A stretch of 37,769 nucleotides of DNA from Bacillota bacterium. Lineage in GTDB: Bacteria > Bacillota > DTU025 > JANLFS01. This document shows positions 1 to 23,126 of the stretch, piece by piece. A model generated the notes under the pieces. It was given only the letters and a program-made list of their open reading frames with translations, ran no database searches and was not told where the DNA came from. Each line of letters begins with the position of its first letter. Within the stretch, counting starts at the first letter, position 1. The translations under genes were made by a program, and so were the position numbers. The stretch spans positions 1 through 37,769 of the forward strand of contig JANLFS010000008.1 of NCBI GenBank assembly GCA_024655925.1, written 5' to 3'.

Positions 1-828
1 CCTTCCGGTTCACCCCCACACGCGTGGGGACAACCCATCTATCCACCTCCCGAGATGTGCTTTATTCGGTTCACCCCCACACGCGTGGGGACAACGCGAC
101 GTGAGTGCGCCGGACTGGGACGTCGCGTAGGTTCACCCCCACACGCGTGGGGACAACAGAACCGCGTTCACCATGGCCTCGCGCGTAGCCGGTTCACCCC
201 CACACGCGTGGGGACAACAATTGGACTGCCTCGCCCAGCCCCCCACAGAGCGGTTCACCCCCACACGCGTGGGGACAACATTGCGATTACCTCCTTCGGC
301 CCCCATCATCGCGGTTCACCCCCACACGCGTGGGGACAACTAGAACCGGTGGAGCGCCTCCCGCTGTTCCATCGGTTCACCCCCACACGCGTGGGGACAA
401 CATCTACTCGAAGGAGGCCGTCGAGGGTGTCATCGGTTCACCCCCACACGCGTGGGGACAACTAGCCTGCCGTGATAGTGGCGGCCTGACTACTCGGTTC
501 ACCCCCACACGCGTGGGGACAACAGTTCCGGCCCCGCGTCCTCAAACATGAGGAACGGTTCACCCCCACACGCGTGGGGACAACGGAGGATGTCAAAGCT
601 CATGGGTATCGCTGAGCGGTTCACCCCCACACGCGTGGGGACAACCAGACATCTCCGCGGGCGACGGCGGGCGCGGCCGGTTCACCCCCACACGCGTGGG
701 GACAACACCTGGGCCGCGGACACGAACTATTTCTATGGCGGTTCACCCCCACACGCGTGGGGACAACGACGGTCTCTTCGACCCGGTTCGATACGACTTC
801 GGTTCACCCCCACACGCGTGGGGACAAC
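1..828 (-). CRISPR. Type I-E CRISPR array, 14 repeats, continues beyond window start
   Basis: Fourteen identical 28-bp repeats start at 7, 68, 130, 191, 252, 313, 374, 435, 496, 557, 618, 679, 740 and 801, with 13 complete spacers; bases 1-6 belong to a further spacer. On the minus strand the repeat begins GTTGTCCCCAC, has a CCCCAC/GTGGGG stem around GCGT, and ends GGGTGAACC. This matches the I-E pattern in which Cas6e cuts 3' of the stem to leave an 8-nt 5' handle, here GTGAACC plus G. I therefore read the array on the minus strand, the same way as the cas genes, with its leader-proximal end at 828. In 13 of 14 repeats the next minus-strand base is G, so the repeat behaves as 29 nt with 32-nt spacers (period 61). 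The exception is the spacer at 96-129, which is one base longer and starts with T. Confidence 0.98.
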
Positions 829-846
829 ACTGGACTTTGCTGGGCC

Positions 847-1119
847 TTATGGAATCCGAACTAGCCGAAGTCCCTCGAAGTCCACGATCATCCGGCGGCA
901 ATCTCCTGCGAGGCGAACGTCGAACCCCTGTTCGTTGTTAGTGTTCCAGGCCATGATACAGCCACCGTCTCGTGCATAGCGGCAAGCTCTTTCCCAAAGC
1001 TTATCACGAACCAGTGCGGACGGGGAACCGACGAAGACACCCGCCTTGATCTCCAACATCCAGCGGGTGAGCTCCCCGCGGAGTGACACGGGAACCCTCT
1101 CCAACACCATTACGATCAT
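847..1119 (-). CDS. cas2: Cas2e, CRISPR adaptation protein
   Basis: This 90-residue protein is a Cas2 of the I-E (CT1978) branch, the dimer that bridges two Cas1 dimers in the spacer integrase. Family hallmarks visible are the N-terminal strand followed by VPVSLRGELTRWMLEIKAGVFVG with the usual spacing, then MAWNTNNEQGFD, and the C-terminal DFEGLRLVRIP, which aligns with the natural end of E. coli Cas2, so the gene is complete. Its ATG overlaps the cas1 stop (ATGA, 1116-1119), which implies translational coupling. The stop codon at 847-849 is only 18 bp from the first repeat at 828, so any leader or array promoter would have to lie in the 3' part of cas2, or the array is read through from the operon. 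Confidence 0.96.
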   Translation of the reverse strand: MIVMVLERVPVSLRGELTRWMLEIKAGVFVGSPSALVRDKLWERACRYARDGGCIMAWNTNNEQGFDVRLAGDCRRMIVDFEGLRLVRIP

Positions 1120-2069
1120 AACTTGCTCTCCTCCCCGGCCCCTGGATCGGCGTAATTATGGCCACCTTGCAGTTGACCTGCGCGAGGATCCCACAAGGCA
1201 CCAGGCACGGCCGGATCGTGGGTGTCACACGGCTCAGCGGTACTCTCATCGTGTCCAAAGAGAGACTCCAGATCTTCCACTATCCGTGCGAGGAGTCTCA
1301 TGCGCACGAAGTTATCCCGACACATCTTCCTCACGGTTGTCTCCACCGGCATCTCGCCGGATGCCACTGCCGCAAAGGCTGCAGGTATCGTGGTCCCGAC
1401 CTTGTATAGGTCCGCGATGTCGTAGACGAATGAAAGCTGTCGACCAGTGTGAATGAACCCCAGGGCAGGTGAGTATCCTAGCGAGACTATTGCCGCATGA
1501 CACAGCCCGTAAAGGCAGGAATTGGCGGCGGATAGCGCTCGGTTGACCGGATCCGCATCGCTCCACTTCGTACGATCGTATGAGCGCCCAGTCCATGGCA
1601 CGCCCGTCTCTCTGCTGGCCTGGGCATAAGCCTCACGCACTCTGACTCCTTCACGTCCTCTCAGTTGCTGAAGCGTAATCCCCTCCGGCAGGGGCTCGGG
1701 GAACCTCATAGCGTACAGCTTAAACACCATCCTCATATGCGCCTCGGGGTCGGAGTACACTGCCACCTGCCTCAACAGGGAAGAGGAAGATCTGGTCTCG
1801 CCAACGCCTTGAGCATAAACCCTCACACCCTGTTCACCAGTCCATAGCACGCTGCACCCGCATTCAGCGAGAGTGCTTATTGCCGCATGTGTGATGCTCG
1901 TCCCGGGGCCGATCATGAGCAGAGCCAGGTTTGCGCATGGTACCGGCACGCGGCCATCTGCATCGTGAATCGCTATGGCCTTATCTTCCCGATCCACCTT
2001 GCAGTGCTCCACATATAGATACGTCCAGCTATCTCTGAGTTTGGGTAGCTCACGGAAGTCCTGCACCAT
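1116..2069 (-). CDS. cas1: Cas1e, CRISPR integrase
   Basis: Cas1 is the metal-dependent integrase that inserts spacers with Cas2. Counting from the start chosen here (317 aa), the metal ligands are E140 in LRGREGVRVR, H207 in GFIHTGRQLSFVYDIADLY and D217 in the same motif, matching E141, H208 and D221 of E. coli Cas1. An ATG also exists at 2081, but it is itself part of the purine-rich stretch GGAGGGAAGG that makes a good ribosome site for the ATG at 2069; nothing like a ribosome site precedes 2081. The C-terminal tail after about residue 290 is low in conservation, as is usual. A 108-120 bp gap separates it from cas6e, the only real gap in the operon, but I see no convincing promoter there. 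Confidence 0.97.
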   Translation of the reverse strand: MVQDFRELPKLRDSWTYLYVEHCKVDREDKAIAIHDADGRVPVPCANLALLMIGPGTSITHAAISTLAECGCSVLWTGEQGVRVYAQGVGETRSSSSLLRQVAVYSDPEAHMRMVFKLYAMRFPEPLPEGITLQQLRGREGVRVREAYAQASRETGVPWTGRSYDRTKWSDADPVNRALSAANSCLYGLCHAAIVSLGYSPALGFIHTGRQLSFVYDIADLYKVGTTIPAAFAAVASGEMPVETTVRKMCRDNFVRMRLLARIVEDLESLFGHDESTAEPCDTHDPAVPGALWDPRAGQLQGGHNYADPGAGEESKL

Positions 2070-2189
2070 CCTTCCCTCCATTCATCAGTGGCGGGGACGC
2101 CCATCTCTTAGAGGGTGCCCCTCCCACCACTCCCTGGTTCAGGGCGACTGGAAGCGGTACCGGAAGTTGCAGCGACGGGATCATGCCCG

Positions 2190-2900
2190 CTACCTGGGTG
2201 GAGCGACGGTGAGCAGGCCGAAGCCGTATGCCTTTCCGCTGCCGATGCCGCGTGTGAGAGTAGTGCGGAACTTGTCTTCATTGGTGATGCGGAGATGTCC
2301 CTCGAAGAACACCGAACCGTAAGTCAACTTGGCCTCACCCCTTTGCCCATAGACTCTGGGTTCGGGCCTTGTGTCGACGTCTGGCACGTTTGTATCCACC
2401 CTGACGCTCATAAGCTCGTAGCCACTTTCTTCTCCTTTCCGCCGCAGCCAGGCAATCTGCTCATCGGGCCGCGTGATAAACACTCGGTGACCGTTTCCGC
2501 GGGTGCCCGCGAGGCGCTCAGCCTTGCTCGCCGTGCCGGTTTTGCGAGTGGGATTAGCCCGCAGGGCGAAGGCCAACACCATCCCTGTGTGGAGTTGAGC
2601 GTATGCCCGGCTGAGTTCTTTGCACGCCGGGTTCTCCACATCGCAGTCTCCCATAAGATACCCCGACGGCAGCCTTGTCCAATCTGGCCGTTCGGCCGAT
2701 TGGACGTAGACCTTCGGGCAGCCAGTCTGTCGGTCGGTCTCGAGCCTGTAGAGAATACCGAAGGAGTTTCTAGAACCTCCGTCCGGGCCACGCGCCTCAC
2801 CAAAAGCGCGCAGCAGTGTGCGGTGCATATCGTGGCAGTCCGAAAGGTCGCGTCGAACCTCCCGGCTTCTAGCATCAAGGATCAGGCGTGAGAGATACAT
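2190..2900 (-). CDS. cas6e: Cas6e, crRNA-processing endoribonuclease
   Basis: Cas6e (CasE/Cse3) cuts the repeat RNA at the 3' base of its hairpin and stays bound to the crRNA 3' end within Cascade. The 236-residue protein has the family N-terminus MYLSRLILD, the DCHDMHRTLLRAF segment whose H26 is at the position of the catalytic histidine of the Thermus enzyme, and the C-terminal glycine-rich loop GIGSGKAYGFGLLTVAP typical of the second ferredoxin-like fold. It overlaps the end of cas5e by 19 bp, so the two are probably co-translated. Cas6e should also be able to process the degenerate repeat at 10071-10099, since that keeps most of the stem. Confidence 0.95.
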   Translation of the reverse strand: MYLSRLILDARSREVRRDLSDCHDMHRTLLRAFGEARGPDGGSRNSFGILYRLETDRQTGCPKVYVQSAERPDWTRLPSGYLMGDCDVENPACKELSRAYAQLHTGMVLAFALRANPTRKTGTASKAERLAGTRGNGHRVFITRPDEQIAWLRRKGEESGYELMSVRVDTNVPDVDTRPEPRVYGQRGEAKLTYGSVFFEGHLRITNEDKFRTTLTRGIGSGKAYGFGLLTVAPPR

Positions 2901-3607
2901 GTCTCACCCTCCTCGGACTCACCTGGGAAATCGGCCCATAGCACCCTTACGCGGCGACTCTCATACATCCGAGCGGGGTTGGTCCTGATGCGGTCTGGAC
3001 GGACGGCTTCCCCTAGTGGATCCTCCATCACGCAGCGCAGACGGGCCGGATATTCCCTGAGCGTAGCTCGGCCCTCCCAGCGCCATGGATGCCGGCGCAA
3101 GGCGTCTTCTAGGTTCGCGTACTCGTAGCTTAACCCTTCGAACACAGGCCGCGTTGGCACACAGGACTTGCGTCCCAGGTATATCGGCCATTTCGGCGCG
3201 AGCAGAGCCGACCTACACCTGAAGAGAAGCTCAGCGGGTCCACTCAGGATCGCCAGGAACGCAGCGTCTTGAAGGTAGGAGCGGGGCGAGATGATTGTAG
3301 AGGGGTCGTCAGGTGTGCCTTTCACTCCGCCGCCTGCCATCGGTATTGTACCTGTGATCGTATGGAAGTCCACCAACTTGCGTCCTTCACATTCCACGCG
3401 TATGCCCAAGGTCAGTTCGGAATCTAGCTCTTCGAGACGCCTGTCGTACATGGGATAGCCCAAGGCGCATCCGAGCAAGCCAATCACGCCGGACTTAGAT
3501 GGTTCGTCACCACTGTCGCGCACGTCCCATCGGGACCGCAGGCCCCACGATTGTAGAGGTCCTTCCAGGCGGAGCAGTAGCAGAGGCTGTCCGGGCACTT
3601 CCATCAC
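2882..3607 (-). CDS. cas5e: Cas5e, Cascade 5'-handle-binding subunit
   Basis: Cas5e (CasD) caps the 5' handle of the crRNA in Cascade and contacts Cse1. The 241-residue protein carries the expected N-terminal RRM-like LLLRLEGPLQSWG, then PSKSGVIGLLGCALG, the central RSYLQDAAFLAIL, and PIYLGRKSCVPTRPVF, which are diagnostic for the I-E form. Length and motif order are normal. Its start overlaps the cas7 stop by 4 bp and its end overlaps cas6e by 19 bp. The first two residues are both Met; the second could be the true start without changing the family assignment. Confidence 0.95.
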   Translation of the reverse strand: MMEVPGQPLLLLRLEGPLQSWGLRSRWDVRDSGDEPSKSGVIGLLGCALGYPMYDRRLEELDSELTLGIRVECEGRKLVDFHTITGTIPMAGGGVKGTPDDPSTIISPRSYLQDAAFLAILSGPAELLFRCRSALLAPKWPIYLGRKSCVPTRPVFEGLSYEYANLEDALRRHPWRWEGRATLREYPARLRCVMEDPLGEAVRPDRIRTNPARMYESRRVRVLWADFPGESEEGETCISHA

Positions 3608-4788
3608 CTCGCCAGAACCTGACCCAGGGCAGCCAGGAGATCATCCATCGTATCGCAGCCAGTAGTGCCGGTTACCTGGATATCCCGCGTGCAGAACCAC
3701 AAGCGAGGATCTGCTTCCAGAGAGAACTTGCGAGTCAACAATTCGCAATGTTCAACAAACTTCCGCAGGCTGTCCCCCACCAAGTCAACGTCGTTCTTCG
3801 CCCGCGCAGGGCTTACAAACGCGTTGGCGTAACTTACAGGCGTCTGATGCGGTCGCACCTCCACCAGGACCGCGTCAGGCAACTGGTGTGCCGCAAATGT
3901 GTTCTGCTTGCCCGACGGTGTTGTGAAAACCGCGGCACGTAGGAAGGCGGGGATTACTTTCGCTGCGATCGTCCTGGCATCGGCTACAGCTTCCCTATGA
4001 GCCGCCTTCTCGCGCTCACTGGCTCTGGTTTCTGGTTCCGGACCGGCGAGGTTTTGAACGAAAGCATCGTAATCGATGGAGAAGTACTTGTAGTAGCAGG
4101 CAGAGTTGAACTCTATGTCGCCTATCATGCCTGCTCCGGCATCATCCTCTTCCTCTCCCAAACCGAGGAGGTCGTCAACCGCAGTGAAGTAGTCGAATTC
4201 GTGGTCCATGCGGTGAGTGGAGATGGCGTGAGCGACCTGCACCGCAGCCTGCACATCGCGGAACGCCTCCGATGTGATCATCCGGCCGAACAGACCGATG
4301 TCCGGGGTGATCGGCCTCCATCCTTTGAGCGCGGCCTCGGCCTGCAAGTCCTTCGCGCTCAACTTGGCCATATCTTCCGCACTTCCAGCTGTGCTTGCTT
4401 TCGTAAACAGCACCTCAGCCACCGCTTCGATGTCTTGCGGCGAGAGAAACATCACCTGCGCTGTCTTGCCGTCCTTCTGTTCTTTGCCGTCCTTGTTGCC
4501 GAAACCAGTTGCCTTGGCCGCCGCAACCTCCGCCAGGGCTTCATCAATCCCCCGCGCCAGAAGGATTTCCTTGACCTTGTGCGGCAGCTTTCGAGTGCGC
4601 AGCCCAAGGTCGATTCCTCCGATCTCTTCAGTGAACAGCGGGGAGGTCCGGATGCTGCGCTTCAGGCACTGGCTTGAGATCCTCGCTCGCCTCACTCCTC
4701 CGAAGATGCAGTCCTTTGGGCTACCAGAATCATCCCGGTTGAGGTTGCTCGGGGCATGGTTTTGGAGAAGATGGAACTCCAACAACAT
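3604..4788 (-). CDS. cas7e: Cas7e, Cascade backbone subunit
   Basis: Cas7e (CasC/Cse4) forms the six-copy backbone that holds the crRNA guide. The N-terminus HLLQNHAPSNLNRDDSGSPK followed by FGGVRRARISSQCLKRSIR is the signature of this family. At 394 residues it is some 30 longer than E. coli CasC (363); the middle region around residues 110-240 contains acidic, low-complexity stretches (LLGLGEEEDDAGAG) that probably account for this. It overlaps cse2 by one base and cas5e by four, within an otherwise gapless operon. Confidence 0.96.
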   Translation of the reverse strand: MLLEFHLLQNHAPSNLNRDDSGSPKDCIFGGVRRARISSQCLKRSIRTSPLFTEEIGGIDLGLRTRKLPHKVKEILLARGIDEALAEVAAAKATGFGNKDGKEQKDGKTAQVMFLSPQDIEAVAEVLFTKASTAGSAEDMAKLSAKDLQAEAALKGWRPITPDIGLFGRMITSEAFRDVQAAVQVAHAISTHRMDHEFDYFTAVDDLLGLGEEEDDAGAGMIGDIEFNSACYYKYFSIDYDAFVQNLAGPEPETRASEREKAAHREAVADARTIAAKVIPAFLRAAVFTTPSGKQNTFAAHQLPDAVLVEVRPHQTPVSYANAFVSPARAKNDVDLVGDSLRKFVEHCELLTRKFSLEADPRLWFCTRDIQVTGTTGCDTMDDLLAALGQVLAR

Positions 4789-5357
4789 CAGGAATTACCT
4801 CCCTTTGTGTTCTGAGAGTCTGAAGTCTCCTCAGGCAGTCTGCCGTAGTATGACCGGGCCCACTGTTTGCGCACGTGCTTGCTGGCGCTCATCCATCGCA
4901 GCAGGTGGCGAAGGAGCACAGCCCAGTCCACGCCAACCTCTTCACTTGCGGCCAAGCGCACACACTGCCGCAGCCTGTAGGCCATCTCGCCGCCACCCGG
5001 GCGGAATCCGTCGACCAGGTCAAACTCACTGTCCAGGAGAATCGCCATGCGCCGGTCCACACTCTCCCGTCCTGTCTTGACCCTCACAGCCCGCATCGTG
5101 GCGCCAAAATCCTTCTCGGGCTTGTGGTCATTGAGCCCATATAACGTGGCCAGGAGGAAGTACAGCTCTTCGTCCCGCTCCGGCACACCCAGGGGGAGAA
5201 GCCGGTAAAACAGCCCTGCGGCATTCCTGGTCTCGGCCAGGGTACGGCCAGCGTTGCGCCGAAGGATGGCGAGATCGCCTCGGTCCAGCTTGGCCAATCG
5301 GCTCACGAAGACATCCACATGATCTGTGGTGGGTTCAGTCGCAATTGCCTCACTCAC
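4788..5357 (-). CDS. cse2: Cse2 (CasB), Cascade small subunit
   Basis: This 189-residue, mostly helical, basic and charged protein sits between cse1 and cas7, the invariant place of cse2 in I-E operons. Cse2 is present as a dimer on the belly of Cascade and stabilises the R-loop. Recognisable family features are the N-terminal FVSRLAKLDRGDLAILRRNAGRTLAE helix pair, FYRLLP, and the C-terminal WAVLLRHLLRWMSASKHVRKQWARSYY. Its start overlaps the cse1 stop by 4 bp. Assignment rests on both sequence and context. Confidence 0.93.
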   Translation of the reverse strand: MSEAIATEPTTDHVDVFVSRLAKLDRGDLAILRRNAGRTLAETRNAAGLFYRLLPLGVPERDEELYFLLATLYGLNDHKPEKDFGATMRAVRVKTGRESVDRRMAILLDSEFDLVDGFRPGGGEMAYRLRQCVRLAASEEVGVDWAVLLRHLLRWMSASKHVRKQWARSYYGRLPEETSDSQNTKGGNS

Positions 5358-6943
5358 GACGCCTGCCTCCCTTTGCGCTTAGACTGAGATTCCTGCTTCT
5401 CTCTCGGGCCATAGAGCGCCCTGTACACGCCGAGCTCGTAGGAATCCCTCGCCGCCACCTGACGGCGCAGCTCCTGGGCGTTGGCGTCCAACCCCTCCAG
5501 ATGGCGGTCCAGCACCTCCCTGCCGTGCCGTCGCAGGATCGTCCTCCACTCCTCCAGCAGAGCAGGAAATGCCTCAGGATCCGAAGCATCCAGGTCCGGC
5601 AACTTCAGCATGTACTCCGCTTCGAAGCAGGGGCGCAGACCTGCCCAGAACTCCCGCTCGGCGGACTCTATGAGCCCTTTGAAGGCCTGAGTGTTGCTCT
5701 TACCCTCTCGGGGATAAGCCATCTTCATCGCCCGTCCGACCAGGTAGCCAACTGTCTCAGCCATCTCGAGCCCTGTTTGGATTCTGGCGCCAGCTCCTGG
5801 CGTCTCGGCCACCTGGGTGGGCAACGATAGCCGCTCACATTGCCACTCGAAGATCTTCATCTTGAGGTCGGTGCGCACACCGAATACCTCCAGATCGATG
5901 ACTGAGCGACAGTGAGGCAGCGCTCCCATCTCTAGCAGATCCACGTACTGCTCCACCACTTGCGGCCTCTGGAAGCGAACCTTGCCGCGTTCGCTTTCAT
6001 ACTCATGCCTGCGCAGAAAGGCCACGGGTCCTATGTCGCGCCACAGTTCCCGTCCCTCCCGCGGGCGAAGCGGAGACTGCCCGTTTGCGTCGATCCTGTA
6101 GGCAACCTGAGGGTCCGTCCAGCCTCCTCCATACTTGAACCCGAAGCTAAAACGCATCTGACGTACCAAAACGTCAGAGTACTGACCGGAGTACGTGCAG
6201 ACTCCGCCCTCGCTCGGAATTAACCTGATCTGGCGGGGACGCCAGGTCAGGCCCTCCAGCAATGAAGTACAACGTGCCTCCTGCCTGGGCTTCACCGGCC
6301 GCTCCGTTCGCCACGCCGGTGGCTCGTCCCCCTCCAGCTCGGGGATGGGGAGCACACAGCAGTTGAGGACTATGGTCTCGAACAGGGTGGTCCCTTTGAC
6401 CAAAACATACCAGGGCGGAGCCCCGTTGACGCTCGGTGAGTACCCGGCTCCACCTGCCGTCATGAACGGCGGAATGGCCAACAGCCCTCGCGCACATACC
6501 GCTGGAGCGAAGGCTTGAGCCGCGGGGTCAAGATGATGGAAATGAGTGGTGAACGATCCCGAGGGCAGGTGCTGGAACAGTTTGTTGATACACTCAGTGC
6601 CGGCTTCACCTTCGACTAGGGGTTGCATGAACGGGTGCTCCGGGTGAAACAGGTCGAACCGGCTCCTGCCGACCAAGTCGATGTAAGCTCGGATGCGTTC
6701 GGGTTCAAAACCGCCGGTGCGCAGAAGGTCCTCGATCTGCCAGATCTCCTTGAGACTGTAGGCATCCATGACGAAAGCGATCAAGAACCGGTATATCCCG
6801 AGTTGCACCGACGGCGCCGGCTCGACAAGCCCGGCTAGTTCGTGCGCAGCTTCAAGCAAACCCACGACCCCGTATTGACCAACACTCCCATCCATCCGCG
6901 CGGCGGGAATCCACCGTTCGACCAAGAGATCGAACGAAGCCAA
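5354..6943 (-). CDS. cse1: Cse1 (CasA, Cas8e), Cascade large subunit
   Basis: Cse1 reads the PAM, starts R-loop formation and recruits Cas3. The 529-residue length and the opening FDLLVERWIPAARMDGSVG, followed by a helical N-terminal region and the HPFMQP loop near residue 100, match the YgcL/Cse1 family; the C-terminal part is a charged four-helix bundle as expected. The start at 6943 lies 6 bp downstream of the cas3 stop, again indicating one transcript. No defect was seen. Which PAM it prefers cannot be read from the gene, but the G at the start of nearly all spacers fits a PAM ending in G, as in the AAG of E. coli. Confidence 0.95.
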   Translation of the reverse strand: MASFDLLVERWIPAARMDGSVGQYGVVGLLEAAHELAGLVEPAPSVQLGIYRFLIAFVMDAYSLKEIWQIEDLLRTGGFEPERIRAYIDLVGRSRFDLFHPEHPFMQPLVEGEAGTECINKLFQHLPSGSFTTHFHHLDPAAQAFAPAVCARGLLAIPPFMTAGGAGYSPSVNGAPPWYVLVKGTTLFETIVLNCCVLPIPELEGDEPPAWRTERPVKPRQEARCTSLLEGLTWRPRQIRLIPSEGGVCTYSGQYSDVLVRQMRFSFGFKYGGGWTDPQVAYRIDANGQSPLRPREGRELWRDIGPVAFLRRHEYESERGKVRFQRPQVVEQYVDLLEMGALPHCRSVIDLEVFGVRTDLKMKIFEWQCERLSLPTQVAETPGAGARIQTGLEMAETVGYLVGRAMKMAYPREGKSNTQAFKGLIESAEREFWAGLRPCFEAEYMLKLPDLDASDPEAFPALLEEWRTILRRHGREVLDRHLEGLDANAQELRRQVAARDSYELGVYRALYGPREKQESQSKRKGRQAS

Positions 6944-6949
6944 TGCCTA

Positions 6950-9640
6950 TCACTCTCCCCTCTTCAACAATACGCCGTGATCCGGATTATCCCGAATGAC
7001 AACGGACTCAGCGCCTCTTCTCCCTCTCCATTCACCTCCTCGTAGGCGCAACACGTACTGACCAGGCAGCCATGATGGGCCAGGTTCGGGCAACGTGAAG
7101 CCTTCCTCGGCTGCTACTCCCGTCCACCAATAGCGCGGAAGGCTGACTGAGTTCATCATGATCTCCGCCAGGACTCTTCGCTCTGGCGCGCGGGAACTGG
7201 CCAATTCTTCAGCAAGGGCCGTGCCTTCAAGAAGCAGGACCGACATAGTGTCGTCCCCGAGTCTGGTCCGGGCCCGGAAGTACGATGCAGCACCACTCTC
7301 CTCTTCGTCGAAAGCACCCAACCGCAGTTGCGCCAACCTGAACTCTCTTGGGTTCGGTTCAGGAATAAGGTACTTCCTGGCCTCGTCGGCCTCCCGTTCG
7401 TCTTCCGACAGGCTCTCCTCCCGGCGGAAATCCTCCTCATTGCTTACCAACTCCGCCCCTTCGGCCCATGGTCTTCCATCGTAGACGCCCTCGATCATGG
7501 GGCGGATATCATCAGGGAGCACAATCATCTCACGGGTCACGAGCGCAGCCATGGTCTTGAGCAACACGAATCGCTGGTAGACCCGCTCTGTCTTTCCCAG
7601 CACAGGGGGTATGCAGGCCTCTGGCCATGCCACATGCAGTCGGGCCTCGTCTCCAGTCGGTCTCTGGGCGCGTGAGTGTCGATGCTCGCGCCCTACTCGC
7701 TGCAGGAGTAGGTCCGCCGGCGGTAGCTCCGTGATCATCTCGTCGAAGTCCACGTCCGCGCTCTGTTCCACAACCTGTGTGGCCACGAGAATTGCCCTCC
7801 GTGGCCGCGGAACATAACCGGGCTCGTCCTCGTTAAGCAAGCTTCTCTTCCCGAAGAGTCGGACCACCTCTTCCTCGATCTCCCGGCGGCGGCAGGCCCG
7901 GAAACGTGCGTGGAATAGAAGTAGCCGGCAGGAATCATCAGGCCGCATGCGCCCCTCAATGGCCTGGAACACCCGCTGCGCCGTGTCGACTGTGTTGACC
8001 AGTACGCAGAGACAACCACCTTGTGCCACCAGATCTAGCGCCAGCGACGCCAGCTTCTCCGGGTTCTCGAGAAATCCGGGGTAGCGGTGCACCCTAATGT
8101 GTCTGCGACGGCGTTCGCCCGCTACCTCGTGTTCCGCAGTTTCGCCCGAACTACTGACCGTCGTTACCAAAGGATAGGGGGCGTATTCACCGGGGAAGCG
8201 AGACGTGTAGTTAGCTTCTGGGGCATAAGCCTCCACCAGGGCCCGGCGTCTGGCCTCTGGAAGCGTTGCGGAGAGCAGGATTACTGGTATCTGGAGTGCC
8301 CGGCACCAGCGCAACAGCCGCGTGAGGATGCGTGACATGTATGGGTCGTACGCATGGACTTCGTCCACGATCAGAACCTTGCCCGACAACCCGAACAGTC
8401 GCAAGAACCCGTGCTTGACATGAAGGACACTGAAGAGCGCCTGATCGATTGTTCCGACACCATACGGCGCCAGAAGACTTCTTTTCTTCGGTCGAAACCA
8501 TTCGAGAGCCAAATGTGACTCGTCTTGAGAGCCCCCAGATAGCCCCGGTGCGACAGACGGCACCGCCGCATCCTCGCCAACCAGCCAGGCTTGTCCATGT
8601 ACAAGACGCGCTCCTGCGGCCAGTTCAGGGTCACGATCCTTGAGAAAAGCTTTGACCCGGTCGAACATCTGGTTGCCAGTCGCTGCAGTGGGCAGAGCGA
8701 CGTACGTGCCATTGTGCCCTCTGGCGCCCCATTGCGTCGCCAAATAGACAGCAGCCTCGGTCTTCCCTTCGCCCATAGGAGCCTCTATGATCCATAACCC
8801 AGGCCCAGCATCCGTCCGGGCCAGTTCCTCGCAGCGTCTCTGCACGGGACGGGCCTTATCGATGCGGAGCGTCCTCCACGTGTGCAGGAAGGGCTCACCT
8901 TCCCGCCATGGGTTGGTAATGTCAAGCCCTAACTTCTCTATCGCTTCCATGGCGACCAAAGCGCTTTGCGGGGCGTAATCCTCCACGTCAGCGGTGTACA
9001 CTCTGCGAGGAAAGAGCTCTTGGTTCGATGCGATCCAGTCGCTCCAAACGAGCAACCCCGACAGGAGCAAACCGAATACACTGTGGTCAACCTCGACCGG
9101 TCGCCAATCACGCGGGGCAAGAACCCTTCGAACAATCGCCTCGAGCTCGCGTCTGAGTGCCTCCCATGTATCATGCTGAAACTCAGGCTCTTCCGGTGCG
9201 GGGGCACCGAAATCCCCATGATGCCCGCGAAGTGCCTGCCCAACCGTGCGTGAAAGCTGAACCGGCAATCCGAGATCACTCATGAGGAACTTCTGGACCC
9301 ACAGGGCGCTCAAGCCCTCATGGCGGTAATCCCTGTCCTGTACTACACACGACAGACCTCGCTCCTTCAGAGGCATTATGTACTGGTCCGGGCCCCGACC
9401 TTGAAAGTCATGGTGGCATTTTCCGATATCATGCAATGCAGTGAAGTACGCAAGCCACGCTGGCAGCACATCAGTGGGGCACCCAATCGCCGCGCCGGCC
9501 CTGGCCGCCGTTGCCGCGAAGGCAGAGGTCTTTACCAAGGCCTGAGTCACATTTCCGACATCGATGAGGTGACAGGGTAGCGGATGAAAGGGGGCCGTCT
9601 TGGCCCAGAGTCTGAATACCAGTGAGTGTTCCGCGATCAT
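6950..9640 (-). CDS. cas3: Cas3, HD nuclease-helicase
   Basis: Cas3 is recruited by Cascade and degrades target DNA 3'-5'. From the start chosen (896 aa) the HD nuclease domain has HD at residues 70-71 (LHDIGKCHHDF) and GHHGDFG at about 139-145. The superfamily-2 helicase follows with Walker A GEGKT near 290, DEVH near 426, SAT near 457, a late motif ATQVVEQSADVDFD, and QRVGREHRHS. The ATG at 9640 is preceded by GGGGAGG at 7-8 nt; the frame stays open to 9697 but without a ribosome site. This is the first gene of the operon. Its roughly 540-bp upstream region contains the promoter candidate and the degenerate repeat described separately. Confidence 0.97.
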   Translation of the reverse strand: MIAEHSLVFRLWAKTAPFHPLPCHLIDVGNVTQALVKTSAFAATAARAGAAIGCPTDVLPAWLAYFTALHDIGKCHHDFQGRGPDQYIMPLKERGLSCVVQDRDYRHEGLSALWVQKFLMSDLGLPVQLSRTVGQALRGHHGDFGAPAPEEPEFQHDTWEALRRELEAIVRRVLAPRDWRPVEVDHSVFGLLLSGLLVWSDWIASNQELFPRRVYTADVEDYAPQSALVAMEAIEKLGLDITNPWREGEPFLHTWRTLRIDKARPVQRRCEELARTDAGPGLWIIEAPMGEGKTEAAVYLATQWGARGHNGTYVALPTAATGNQMFDRVKAFLKDRDPELAAGARLVHGQAWLVGEDAAVPSVAPGLSGGSQDESHLALEWFRPKKRSLLAPYGVGTIDQALFSVLHVKHGFLRLFGLSGKVLIVDEVHAYDPYMSRILTRLLRWCRALQIPVILLSATLPEARRRALVEAYAPEANYTSRFPGEYAPYPLVTTVSSSGETAEHEVAGERRRRHIRVHRYPGFLENPEKLASLALDLVAQGGCLCVLVNTVDTAQRVFQAIEGRMRPDDSCRLLLFHARFRACRRREIEEEVVRLFGKRSLLNEDEPGYVPRPRRAILVATQVVEQSADVDFDEMITELPPADLLLQRVGREHRHSRAQRPTGDEARLHVAWPEACIPPVLGKTERVYQRFVLLKTMAALVTREMIVLPDDIRPMIEGVYDGRPWAEGAELVSNEEDFRREESLSEDEREADEARKYLIPEPNPREFRLAQLRLGAFDEEESGAASYFRARTRLGDDTMSVLLLEGTALAEELASSRAPERRVLAEIMMNSVSLPRYWWTGVAAEEGFTLPEPGPSWLPGQYVLRLRGGEWRGRRGAESVVIRDNPDHGVLLKRGE

Positions 9641-9786
9641 GGAACGGCCTCCCCGAAGTTGTCTTCCTGTTTGAATGGTATCACTGCCTTCCGGCACGTT
9701 TGTGTCATTTACTTAACTTGCCACGACAGCTGATTCCAGTCGGCGACCCGATCGAGCATGAACAAGTCATGCTTCCAGCTTATGGT

Positions 9787-21814: not shown

Positions 21815-22948
21815 CTACCCCCTGCCGAACAAGAACCACGTTACCAGGAGGTATAGGCCGACTATCATGATGGATTCGATTCCAAGGTTTCCAACTTTTC
21901 GCCGGGACCGATAGAAGAGACCGATCAGGACTACGGCGCTCATGAGAAGGGCGAACATCGCCGCAACCGCGTGGGCCTGACTTACGGCGGTCAGCAGGGG
22001 CCCGGGGCGGTGGGCAGCGTCCGCGAAGAAGAGAACAGCCATATTGAACAAGTTGCTCCCCAGGGCGTTTCCGAGAGCCAGGTTGATGGCGCCGATGTTG
22101 GCAGCCGCTATGCACGTGGTCATTTCAGAGGGGGAGGTGGCCGCCGCGACCAGACCCGATTCGACGAAACCAGCCGACAGGCCAGTCTGCTGGACTATGC
22201 CTTCGGCGGATCGGGTCAGAAGAGTTCCCGCGACTACTATCACGGCCGCCCCTCCAACGAAACCCGCGGCGGCCTGCCCAAGGCTCCGCACTTTCTTAGG
22301 AGAGGGCTCGTGCGGTTCTTCTCCTCTTTCTGGCTGACCTGCCGCATCAGTCGCACGCATGGATGATTCCTGCGCAGGCGCTCCCCGTCCAGAGTTCCCC
22401 TGCCTCGGTCGGGTCTGCGGCCGGGCTTCAAACGCATTGAGAAGCCAGGAGCCGAAGACGTAGATCGCGAGGATCGCCAGGGCGTCCACGCCGGCCCCGA
22501 GGACTTCGAGGTCGAGCCGAAGGAGAATTCCCAAAGCCGCCAAAACCATCAGAAGCATCCCAACCGCCGCCGAGAGAAGATGACCCGGAGCGGCGTCGTG
22601 AATGATTGACCTCTTCCTATACACAGCGTCCGCCAGGGCTATGGTCATGATGTTGAAGAGGTTGCTTCCGAAGAGGTTGCCCGCTGCTATTTCGGGCAGA
22701 CCGACCCTCGCCGCGCTGACGGAGGCGACCATTTCCGGAAGGGAAGTCCCCGCGGCGAGGAGTATCCCGCCGACCCCCACGGCGCCCAGACGCGTGCGCG
22801 CGGATATCGCTGCCCCGCCTGGATGTCTGTGCCTGACGGTACCGCCCAGACGCGTGCGCGCGGATATCGCGTCAGCCGCTCTGGTGAGGGCCAGCCCGGC
22901 ACCTATTATGGCTACGCCGCTTGTGATGAAGGCCAGATACGCGTTCAA
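21815..22948 (-). CDS. CaCA-family sodium/calcium exchanger-like membrane protein
   Basis: Two halves with opposed alpha-repeats are visible: LAAGTSLPEMVASVSAA ... GNLFGSNLFNIMTI and VAAATSPSEMTTCIAAAN ... GNALGSNLFNMAV, the ion-binding signature of the calcium:cation antiporter superfamily (YrbG-like). The halves are joined by a charged loop (about residues 175-220). A -10-like TATAAT at 23001-23006 and the GGGAG before TTG at 22948 favour that start; the open frame to 23017 would begin before the predicted transcript. Just before the first alpha-repeat there is a 20-residue in-frame insertion ending in a second copy of AISARTRLG, caused by the 28-bp duplication at 22783-22870. Function of the protein after this insertion is uncertain. 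Confidence 0.85.
   Translation of the reverse strand: MNAYLAFITSGVAIIGAGLALTRAADAISARTRLGGTVRHRHPGGAAISARTRLGAVGVGGILLAAGTSLPEMVASVSAARVGLPEIAAGNLFGSNLFNIMTIALADAVYRKRSIIHDAAPGHLLSAAVGMLLMVLAALGILLRLDLEVLGAGVDALAILAIYVFGSWLLNAFEARPQTRPRQGNSGRGAPAQESSMRATDAAGQPERGEEPHEPSPKKVRSLGQAAAGFVGGAAVIVVAGTLLTRSAEGIVQQTGLSAGFVESGLVAAATSPSEMTTCIAAANIGAINLALGNALGSNLFNMAVLFFADAAHRPGPLLTAVSQAHAVAAMFALLMSAVVLIGLFYRSRRKVGNLGIESIMIVGLYLLVTWFLFGRG
22783..22870 (-). repeat. Exact 28-bp duplication around 32 bp: possible off-target CRISPR spacer unit
   Basis: Bases 22783-22810 and 22843-22870 are identical over exactly 28 bp (flanking bases differ on both sides) and are separated by 32 bp unrelated to the flanks. 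The resident array uses 28-bp repeats and 33-bp spacers including a leading G. Here the insert also begins with G on the minus strand. Integration by Cas1-Cas2 duplicates the repeat and leaves a spacer between copies, so this is the expected scar of integration outside the array. Aligned in register the 28-mer shares a CCnCGCG core with the true repeat but little else. The net 60-bp gain keeps the reading frame. Confidence 0.55.
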
Positions 22949-23000
22949 GGATCCCGACTCCCTTCGTCGCGCGGGCAGAGATGGCATCGCCCTTCTTTGT

Positions 23001-23006
23001 ATTATA
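23001..23006 (-). promoter_or_regulatory. -10 element of the antiporter gene
   Basis: The minus strand reads TATAAT, a perfect -10, about 50 bp before the TTG start at 22948. A matching -35 was not found. It shares the divergent region with the liv operon. Confidence 0.4.
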
Positions 23007-23126
23007 ACGCAGGACATCGGTCGACTCTGGCGAATACCTTACCCAGGTCGTGGCTGTTCGGAGGTAACGTGTTGCTTACATGGGAACGCCTCCCAGCCAA
23101 CAATAGGATTAGGAGGTGTCGGTCGA

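Follow-up and report, generated by a model that had tools for sequence, protein, structure and literature searches.

Evidence for natural off-target spacer integration by a resident type I-E CRISPR adaptation system in a Bacillota bacterium

How could a short stretch of a chromosomal antiporter gene come to be duplicated exactly, with a spacer-sized segment of unrelated DNA between the two copies? This question is raised by a 37,769-nt stretch of DNA (contig JANLFS010000008.1 of a Bacillota bacterium; hereafter the window), for which the original prediction had proposed an off-target integration by the Cas1-Cas2 proteins of a type I-E CRISPR system.

The scar in the antiporter gene

The duplicated sequence (CGCCCAGACGCGTGCGCGCGGATATCGC) occupies positions 22783-22810 and recurs without a mismatch at 22843-22870; the copies are separated by 32 bp (22811-22842). 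The edges are sharp, with repeat identity ending at both borders, and the 32 bp show no similarity to either flank; the arrangement first described for this site was reproduced in each of these respects. An exact 28-bp match at such spacing is not chance. The affected region comprises the following features.

21815..23017, minus strand: calcium/sodium antiporter (Na_Ca_ex, PF01699) with a 20-residue insertion just before the first alpha-repeat (domain match, alignment)
22783..22810, minus strand: copy of the 28-bp duplication (exact direct repeat), leader-distal if read on the minus strand
22811..22842, minus strand: 32-bp inserted spacer-like segment (minus strand GTACCGTCAGGCACAGACATCCAGGCGGGGCA), without counterpart in 31 aligned homologues (protein level) and unique in its own genome at up to 3 mismatches
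22843..22870, minus strand: copy of the 28-bp duplication, leader-proximal on the minus strand, with 13/28 in-register matches to the resident repeat

Translation and alignment bore out the claim that 20 codons had been added in frame ahead of the first alpha-repeat: the scar contributes a net 60 bp, in phase 0, to a protein of 400 residues. In the full alignment exactly 20 residues, at precisely the position of the scar, were missing as one clean gap from 31 of 31 homologues, and the best local alignments to homologues from the phylum begin only within or after the second repeat copy. When one repeat and the insert are removed, the protein reads LTRAADAISARTRLGAVGVGGILLAAGTSLPEM, which resembles the family sequence. 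The presumed ancestral form, lacking precisely 60 bp, is therefore borne out at the protein level, and the evidence indicates that the 60 bp is derived, having been inserted in this lineage; no close strain is available in which the exact DNA junction could be seen. Close relatives of the antiporter and of Cas1 were sought among genome contigs and none was confirmed, the peptide patterns used probably being too specific; a hand-made consensus peptide had no match in viral contigs. The added residues fall in a loop that precedes the first alpha-repeat, and the two signature motifs (GTSLPE and ATSPSE) have been preserved, from which we infer that the antiporter probably still functions despite the insertion.

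The scar is repeat-spacer-sized, as had been claimed, with respect to the 28-bp duplication, but its total of 60 bp is one base short of the canonical unit (28 + 33 = 61). A 28-bp target duplication is what off-target type I-E integration is expected to leave, and an insert of 32 bp is within the tolerated range of about 32-34 bp. Since only a multiple of three keeps the antiporter frame open, we infer that this insertion, of 60 rather than 61 bp, may have survived for that reason. The duplicated 28-mer is only 13/28 like the repeat, there is one insert only, and no sign of array growth is present. With up to 3 mismatches allowed, the rest of the genome contains no further copy of the 28-mer or of the insert.

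The resident type I-E locus and dispersed repeats

The window contains a complete type I-E locus, whose intact cas1e and cas2e ORF are situated 20 kb from the antiporter scar.

7..828, minus strand: type I-E CRISPR array of 14 repeats (GTTGTCCCCACGCGTGTGGGGGTGAACC, minus strand) and 13 spacers (12 of 33 bp, 1 of 34 bp); the contig ends inside or beside the array, so there are at least 14 repeats
847..1119, minus strand: cas2e-like ORF, 18 bp from the first repeat (translation, sequence resemblance, no HMM)
1116..2081, minus strand: cas1e, intact (TIGR03638, 374 bits, cut-off 215.6)
2190..2900, minus strand: cas6e/Cse3 (TIGR01907)
2882..3607, minus strand: cas5e (TIGR01868)
3604..4788, minus strand: cas7e/Cse4 (TIGR01869, PF09344)
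4788..5357, minus strand: cse2 (TIGR02548)
5354..6943, minus strand: cse1 (TIGR02547, PF09481)
6950..9697, minus strand: cas3 (PF18019, TIGR01587)

An array with 28-bp repeats, a period of 61 and spacers that begin with G was correctly recognised from the outset (12 of the 13 spacers are 33 bp long, and 12 of the 13 start with G on the minus strand). The argument that the antiporter insert likewise begins with G is accurate for the minus strand, but constitutes weak evidence taken alone. The sole 34-bp spacer unit (window 96-129) is also the sole one that does not start with G (TACGCG...), suggesting slipped integration or non-AAG capture. Comparison of the resident spacers with the genome stretches examined gave matches no better than chance.

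Within the order, Cas1 is seldom present (2 of 12 genomes), and the other Cas1 is only 32% identical. The 18-bp distance between cas2 and the array, in the same arrangement, is also found in two relatives (L166 and L169), which led us to reject an unusually short leader as the cause of loose targeting.

Besides the array, about ten solitary copies of the I-E repeat are dispersed in the genome. Four of them are exact, 9 of 10 keep the 29th base G, and their flanks are unrelated.

Positions: C5:29011, C23:21495, C104:4669, C159:3409, C10:30240, C25:15175, C43:21668, C83:10487, C80:10783, C14:35156
Loci: L275, L290, L292-L295, L297, L298, L300, L302

Several of these immediately precede terminator-like stem-loops; the C23 copy, which adjoins an N gap, could represent a collapsed array. 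Two orphan three-repeat mini-arrays, composed of diverged copies of the I-E repeat, are located away from cas genes (L089:10273-10422 in C35 and L185:6230-6380 in C83). Solitary repeat units are known from phages as RNA anti-CRISPRs (PMC10651486); those identified here may be RNA anti-CRISPRs, array remnants, or elements tied to loose targeting by Cas1-Cas2.

Sibling scars, their targets and their donors

The genome was scanned for near-exact direct repeats at spacings of 20 to 200 or 400 bp. The scan covered 2.415 Mb of the 3.213-Mb genome (a quarter was left unscanned), and CRISPR arrays, tandem arrays and repetitive proteins were excluded from the tally. Five further clean repeat-gap-repeat scars were found, in which 28-bp duplications surround 32-34 bp, giving totals of 60-62 bp (lengths below are duplication/insert).

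C35:18365, 28/33
C43:1672, 28/33
C81:1736, 27 exact plus one edge mismatch (last base), i.e. 28/33
C5:28867, 28 with one mismatch/34
C35:26887, 28 with one mismatch and one chance base/32

These totals bracket the unit of the resident array (61, with one of 62). When clean 28-base windows were arranged by spacing, the sole peak of the histogram was at 60-62; CRISPR mini-arrays, which account for part of this peak, were set aside. No other recurring size class was present in the scanned 2.415 Mb. Clean scars of the same geometry were absent from about 1.76 Mb of control DNA, made up of 1.31 Mb of viral and phylum loci (cas1 loci with arrays excluded) plus 0.45 Mb of Burkholderia/Sinorhizobium replicons, with the caveat that most of this DNA is of viral or megaplasmid origin and does not represent I-E-free genomes from the same phylum.

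Several other candidates were rejected. Those at L077:10027 (58 bp) and L072:16697 (62 bp) are diverged tandem duplications in which similarity continues through the gap, while L049:38 (21/39) and L118:3152 (18/30) do not fit the scar geometry and were left out of the count. The candidate at L036:17311 (C1) spans 10 Ns of a scaffold gap bordered by an 18-bp direct repeat, with the upstream flank also present as an inverted copy; it is an assembly artefact imitating a repeat-gap-repeat scar. The near-exact 62-bp tandem duplication at L072:16697 (C18) has unit ends that are mutually reverse-complementary (GACACTCGAGGTGTC and GACACCTCGAGTGTC), as if a palindrome had been flipped.

The sibling scars differ in their consequences for genes, two of the five being disruptive. 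At C35:18365, 61 bp split a gene for a substrate-binding protein, the halves of which match PF13458 positions 2-223 and 235-339, and at C35:26887 an in-frame 60 bp introduces TGA into a BTAD-type regulator (frame read by hand). The remaining three are at or just past stop codons: the C5 scar starts on the final stop-codon base of a WYL gene, the C43 scar is 17 bp past a stop codon, and the C81 scar straddles the recX stop, which is left intact. Such placements are what should be expected of the survivors of random insertion. An exact solitary CRISPR repeat lies 54 bp downstream of the C5 scar and shares its orientation (L046:8867-9038, i.e. C5:28867-29038).

Do the six target sites have anything in common? 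Each 28-mer was compared with the resident repeat GTTGTCCCCACGCGTGTGGGGGTGAACC in a gapless alignment, and the better orientation was taken. Altogether the six targets give 79 in-register matches, compared with 54.8 +/- 5.0 (SD) for random genomic sextets, of which 1 in 33,333 reached this value; under a stricter null model, with shuffled repeats, it was reached in 30 of 20,000 cases. Jointly, the targets resemble the repeat in register far above background. The resemblance of single sites is modest (P 0.015-0.09; P 0.04 for the antiporter site). The motif CC.C, at positions 8, 9 and 11, is present in five of the six (plus orientation assumed for C5), with a background of 5%, and G is the first base of all six 28-mers in the orientation suggested by the motif or the PAM, which at C35:26887 requires the second of two possible registers. 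For C43 the orientations conflict, the PAM implying plus and the best repeat match minus. G is also the preferred acceptor base of E. coli Cas1 (PMC4574026). AGT forms the end of the leader at the resident array and in relatives; no leader-like AGT precedes any of the six targets.

For two of the inserts a donor could be identified. The C43 insert corresponds, with 1 mismatch, to exactly 33 bp of the host chromosome (C71:15840-15872); the donor site reads aaa immediately followed by GAATCC, i.e. an AAG PAM whose G is retained as base 1 of the 33. This is the form taken by protospacers of the E. coli type I-E system, which are 33 bp long with the G of AAG as their first base, while spacer lengths range from 31 to 34 (PMC10011333). 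The C5 insert (34 bp) matches C40:1374-1407, inside an open gene, with 2 mismatches and with AAG on neither side. Naive adaptation takes self DNA, and AAG is found in at most half of such spacers (PMC10011333). No second copy of the inserts of both C35 scars or of C81 was found elsewhere in the genome. The anticipated donor with an adjacent AAG was accordingly recovered for a sibling and not for the antiporter insert itself, which has no significant match in its own genome (up to 3 mismatches), in phages or plasmids, or, as exact 20-22-mers, in viral contigs.

Origin and significance of the scars

The antiporter scar very probably results from a single off-target event in which the resident type I-E Cas1-Cas2 integrated a spacer at a repeat-like site, in nature. 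As far as can be judged from DNA and protein sequences, this proposal of the original prediction is supported by the absence of the 60 bp from homologues (at the protein level), by the five sibling scars and by a sibling protospacer with an AAG PAM, to which the 28-32-28 structure, a second host donor, the joint in-register similarity between targets and repeat and the intact cas1-cas2 locus may be added. Cas1-Cas2 loaded with a spacer-sized DNA fragment would engage a 28-bp chromosomal stretch resembling the CRISPR repeat. Each of the two 3' ends of the fragment would then be joined at one edge of this stretch, the two junctions being on opposite strands, and fill-in of the single-stranded gaps would duplicate the 28 bp on both sides of the insert. 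The responsible enzyme, the order of these steps and catalysis by Cas1-Cas2 at the antiporter site are inferred, in the absence of activity data. The weak points are the insert of 32 rather than 33 bp, the missing donor and the lack of an empty site at the strain level.

An alternative, which we consider improbable, is replication template switching or microhomology-mediated repair, in which a polymerase jumps to a donor for about 33 bp and returns upstream of its point of departure, thereby duplicating 28 bp. Two inserts are indeed templated from elsewhere in the genome, and the C43 donor and scar share 1 extra base upstream and 4 downstream, which might be read as microhomology; the C5 donor, however, has none at either edge. 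Template switching does not predict a constant 28-bp duplication with a 32-34-bp insert at six independent sites, nor the AAG PAM and the in-register resemblance to the repeat, and scars of other sizes do not recur in the scanned 2.415 Mb.

It is very unlikely that the scars are products of metagenome-type assembly. Caution is warranted by the single fragmented assembly (232 contigs), with N gaps elsewhere that are flanked by repeats, as at L036:17311. Nevertheless, all six scars are free of Ns and the antiporter frame remains open, and an assembler would not invent two inserts templated, with mismatches, from distant sites, or duplications of which 3 of 6 have diverged by one base.

Hardly any credence can be given to an ancient 60-bp tandem duplication whose second unit has diverged at 32 of 60 positions: the same genome does contain genuine diverged duplications, of 58 and 62 bp (L077:10027 and L072:16697), but they are similar through the gap, whereas the antiporter scar combines 28 bp of 100% identity with 32 bp unlike either flank, and there is no sign of a longer repeat in homologues. 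Equally little credence is given to a miniature transposable element whose target-site duplication would be unusually long, as the scars share only the general look of transposition (target-site duplication plus insert), the six inserts differ in sequence and lack shared ends, two are plain chromosomal DNA, and insertion sequences do not typically duplicate 28 bp of their target. Off-target integration by Cas1-Cas2 is by far the best of these explanations.

The process as such is already known. In the 2018 work of Nivala, Shipman and Church the off-target sites reportedly resemble the native locus, and a few putative natural cases, in Yersinia pestis and Sulfolobus islandicus, are said to have been noted. 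Spacer-sized inserts in non-array chromosomal DNA, at sites reportedly like the native locus, are common to that work and to the genome described here; the difference is that Cas1-Cas2 was overexpressed there, whereas here six scars occur in a single natural genome from an unrelated lineage, with two host donors and one insertion in frame within a gene. The view that E. coli type I-E Cas1-Cas2 can integrate outside arrays, on which the original prediction relied, agrees with in vitro data (PMC10011333; PMC8047081) and with non-array integrations obtained in vivo with the overexpressed enzyme, as far as these are reported by citing papers (Nivala 2018, Nat Microbiol 3:310, cited in PMC11788318 and PMC9456107). 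Canonical E. coli I-E acquisition shares the 28-bp target duplication, the insert of about 33 bp and the G of AAG kept first (PMC10011333); here, in contrast, the targets are not CRISPR repeats, there is no leader and the products are not arrays. Ectopic acquisition at CRISPR3 of Streptococcus thermophilus (PMC7999890; review PMC8047081) is comparable in that integration occurs away from the leader-proximal repeat, yet there it remains within the array, and here it is outside any array.

What is new is the occurrence of at least six scars in one natural genome, whose targets share a motif and for which two host donors and one PAM could be identified. Off-target spacer integration has so far been shown mainly with overexpressed enzyme. 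The scars provide a readable signature (a 28-bp duplication, a 32-34-bp insert, a repeat-like target, sometimes a host donor and once a PAM), with which a neglected question can be put to the test in any sequenced type I-E genome, namely how often, where and with what effects the adaptation machinery mutates its host; among the siblings, one scar already splits a transporter gene, another places a stop codon in a regulator, and others lie just beyond stop codons. We suggest, only tentatively and as a possibility that may well prove wrong, that Cas1-Cas2 acts in this lineage as a continuing natural mutagen, which writes fragments, some of them host-derived, at repeat-like sites, with about 2.5 scars surviving per Mb, and which disables some genes and lengthens the proteins encoded by others, and that the approximately ten solitary repeats may be linked to the same loose targeting.
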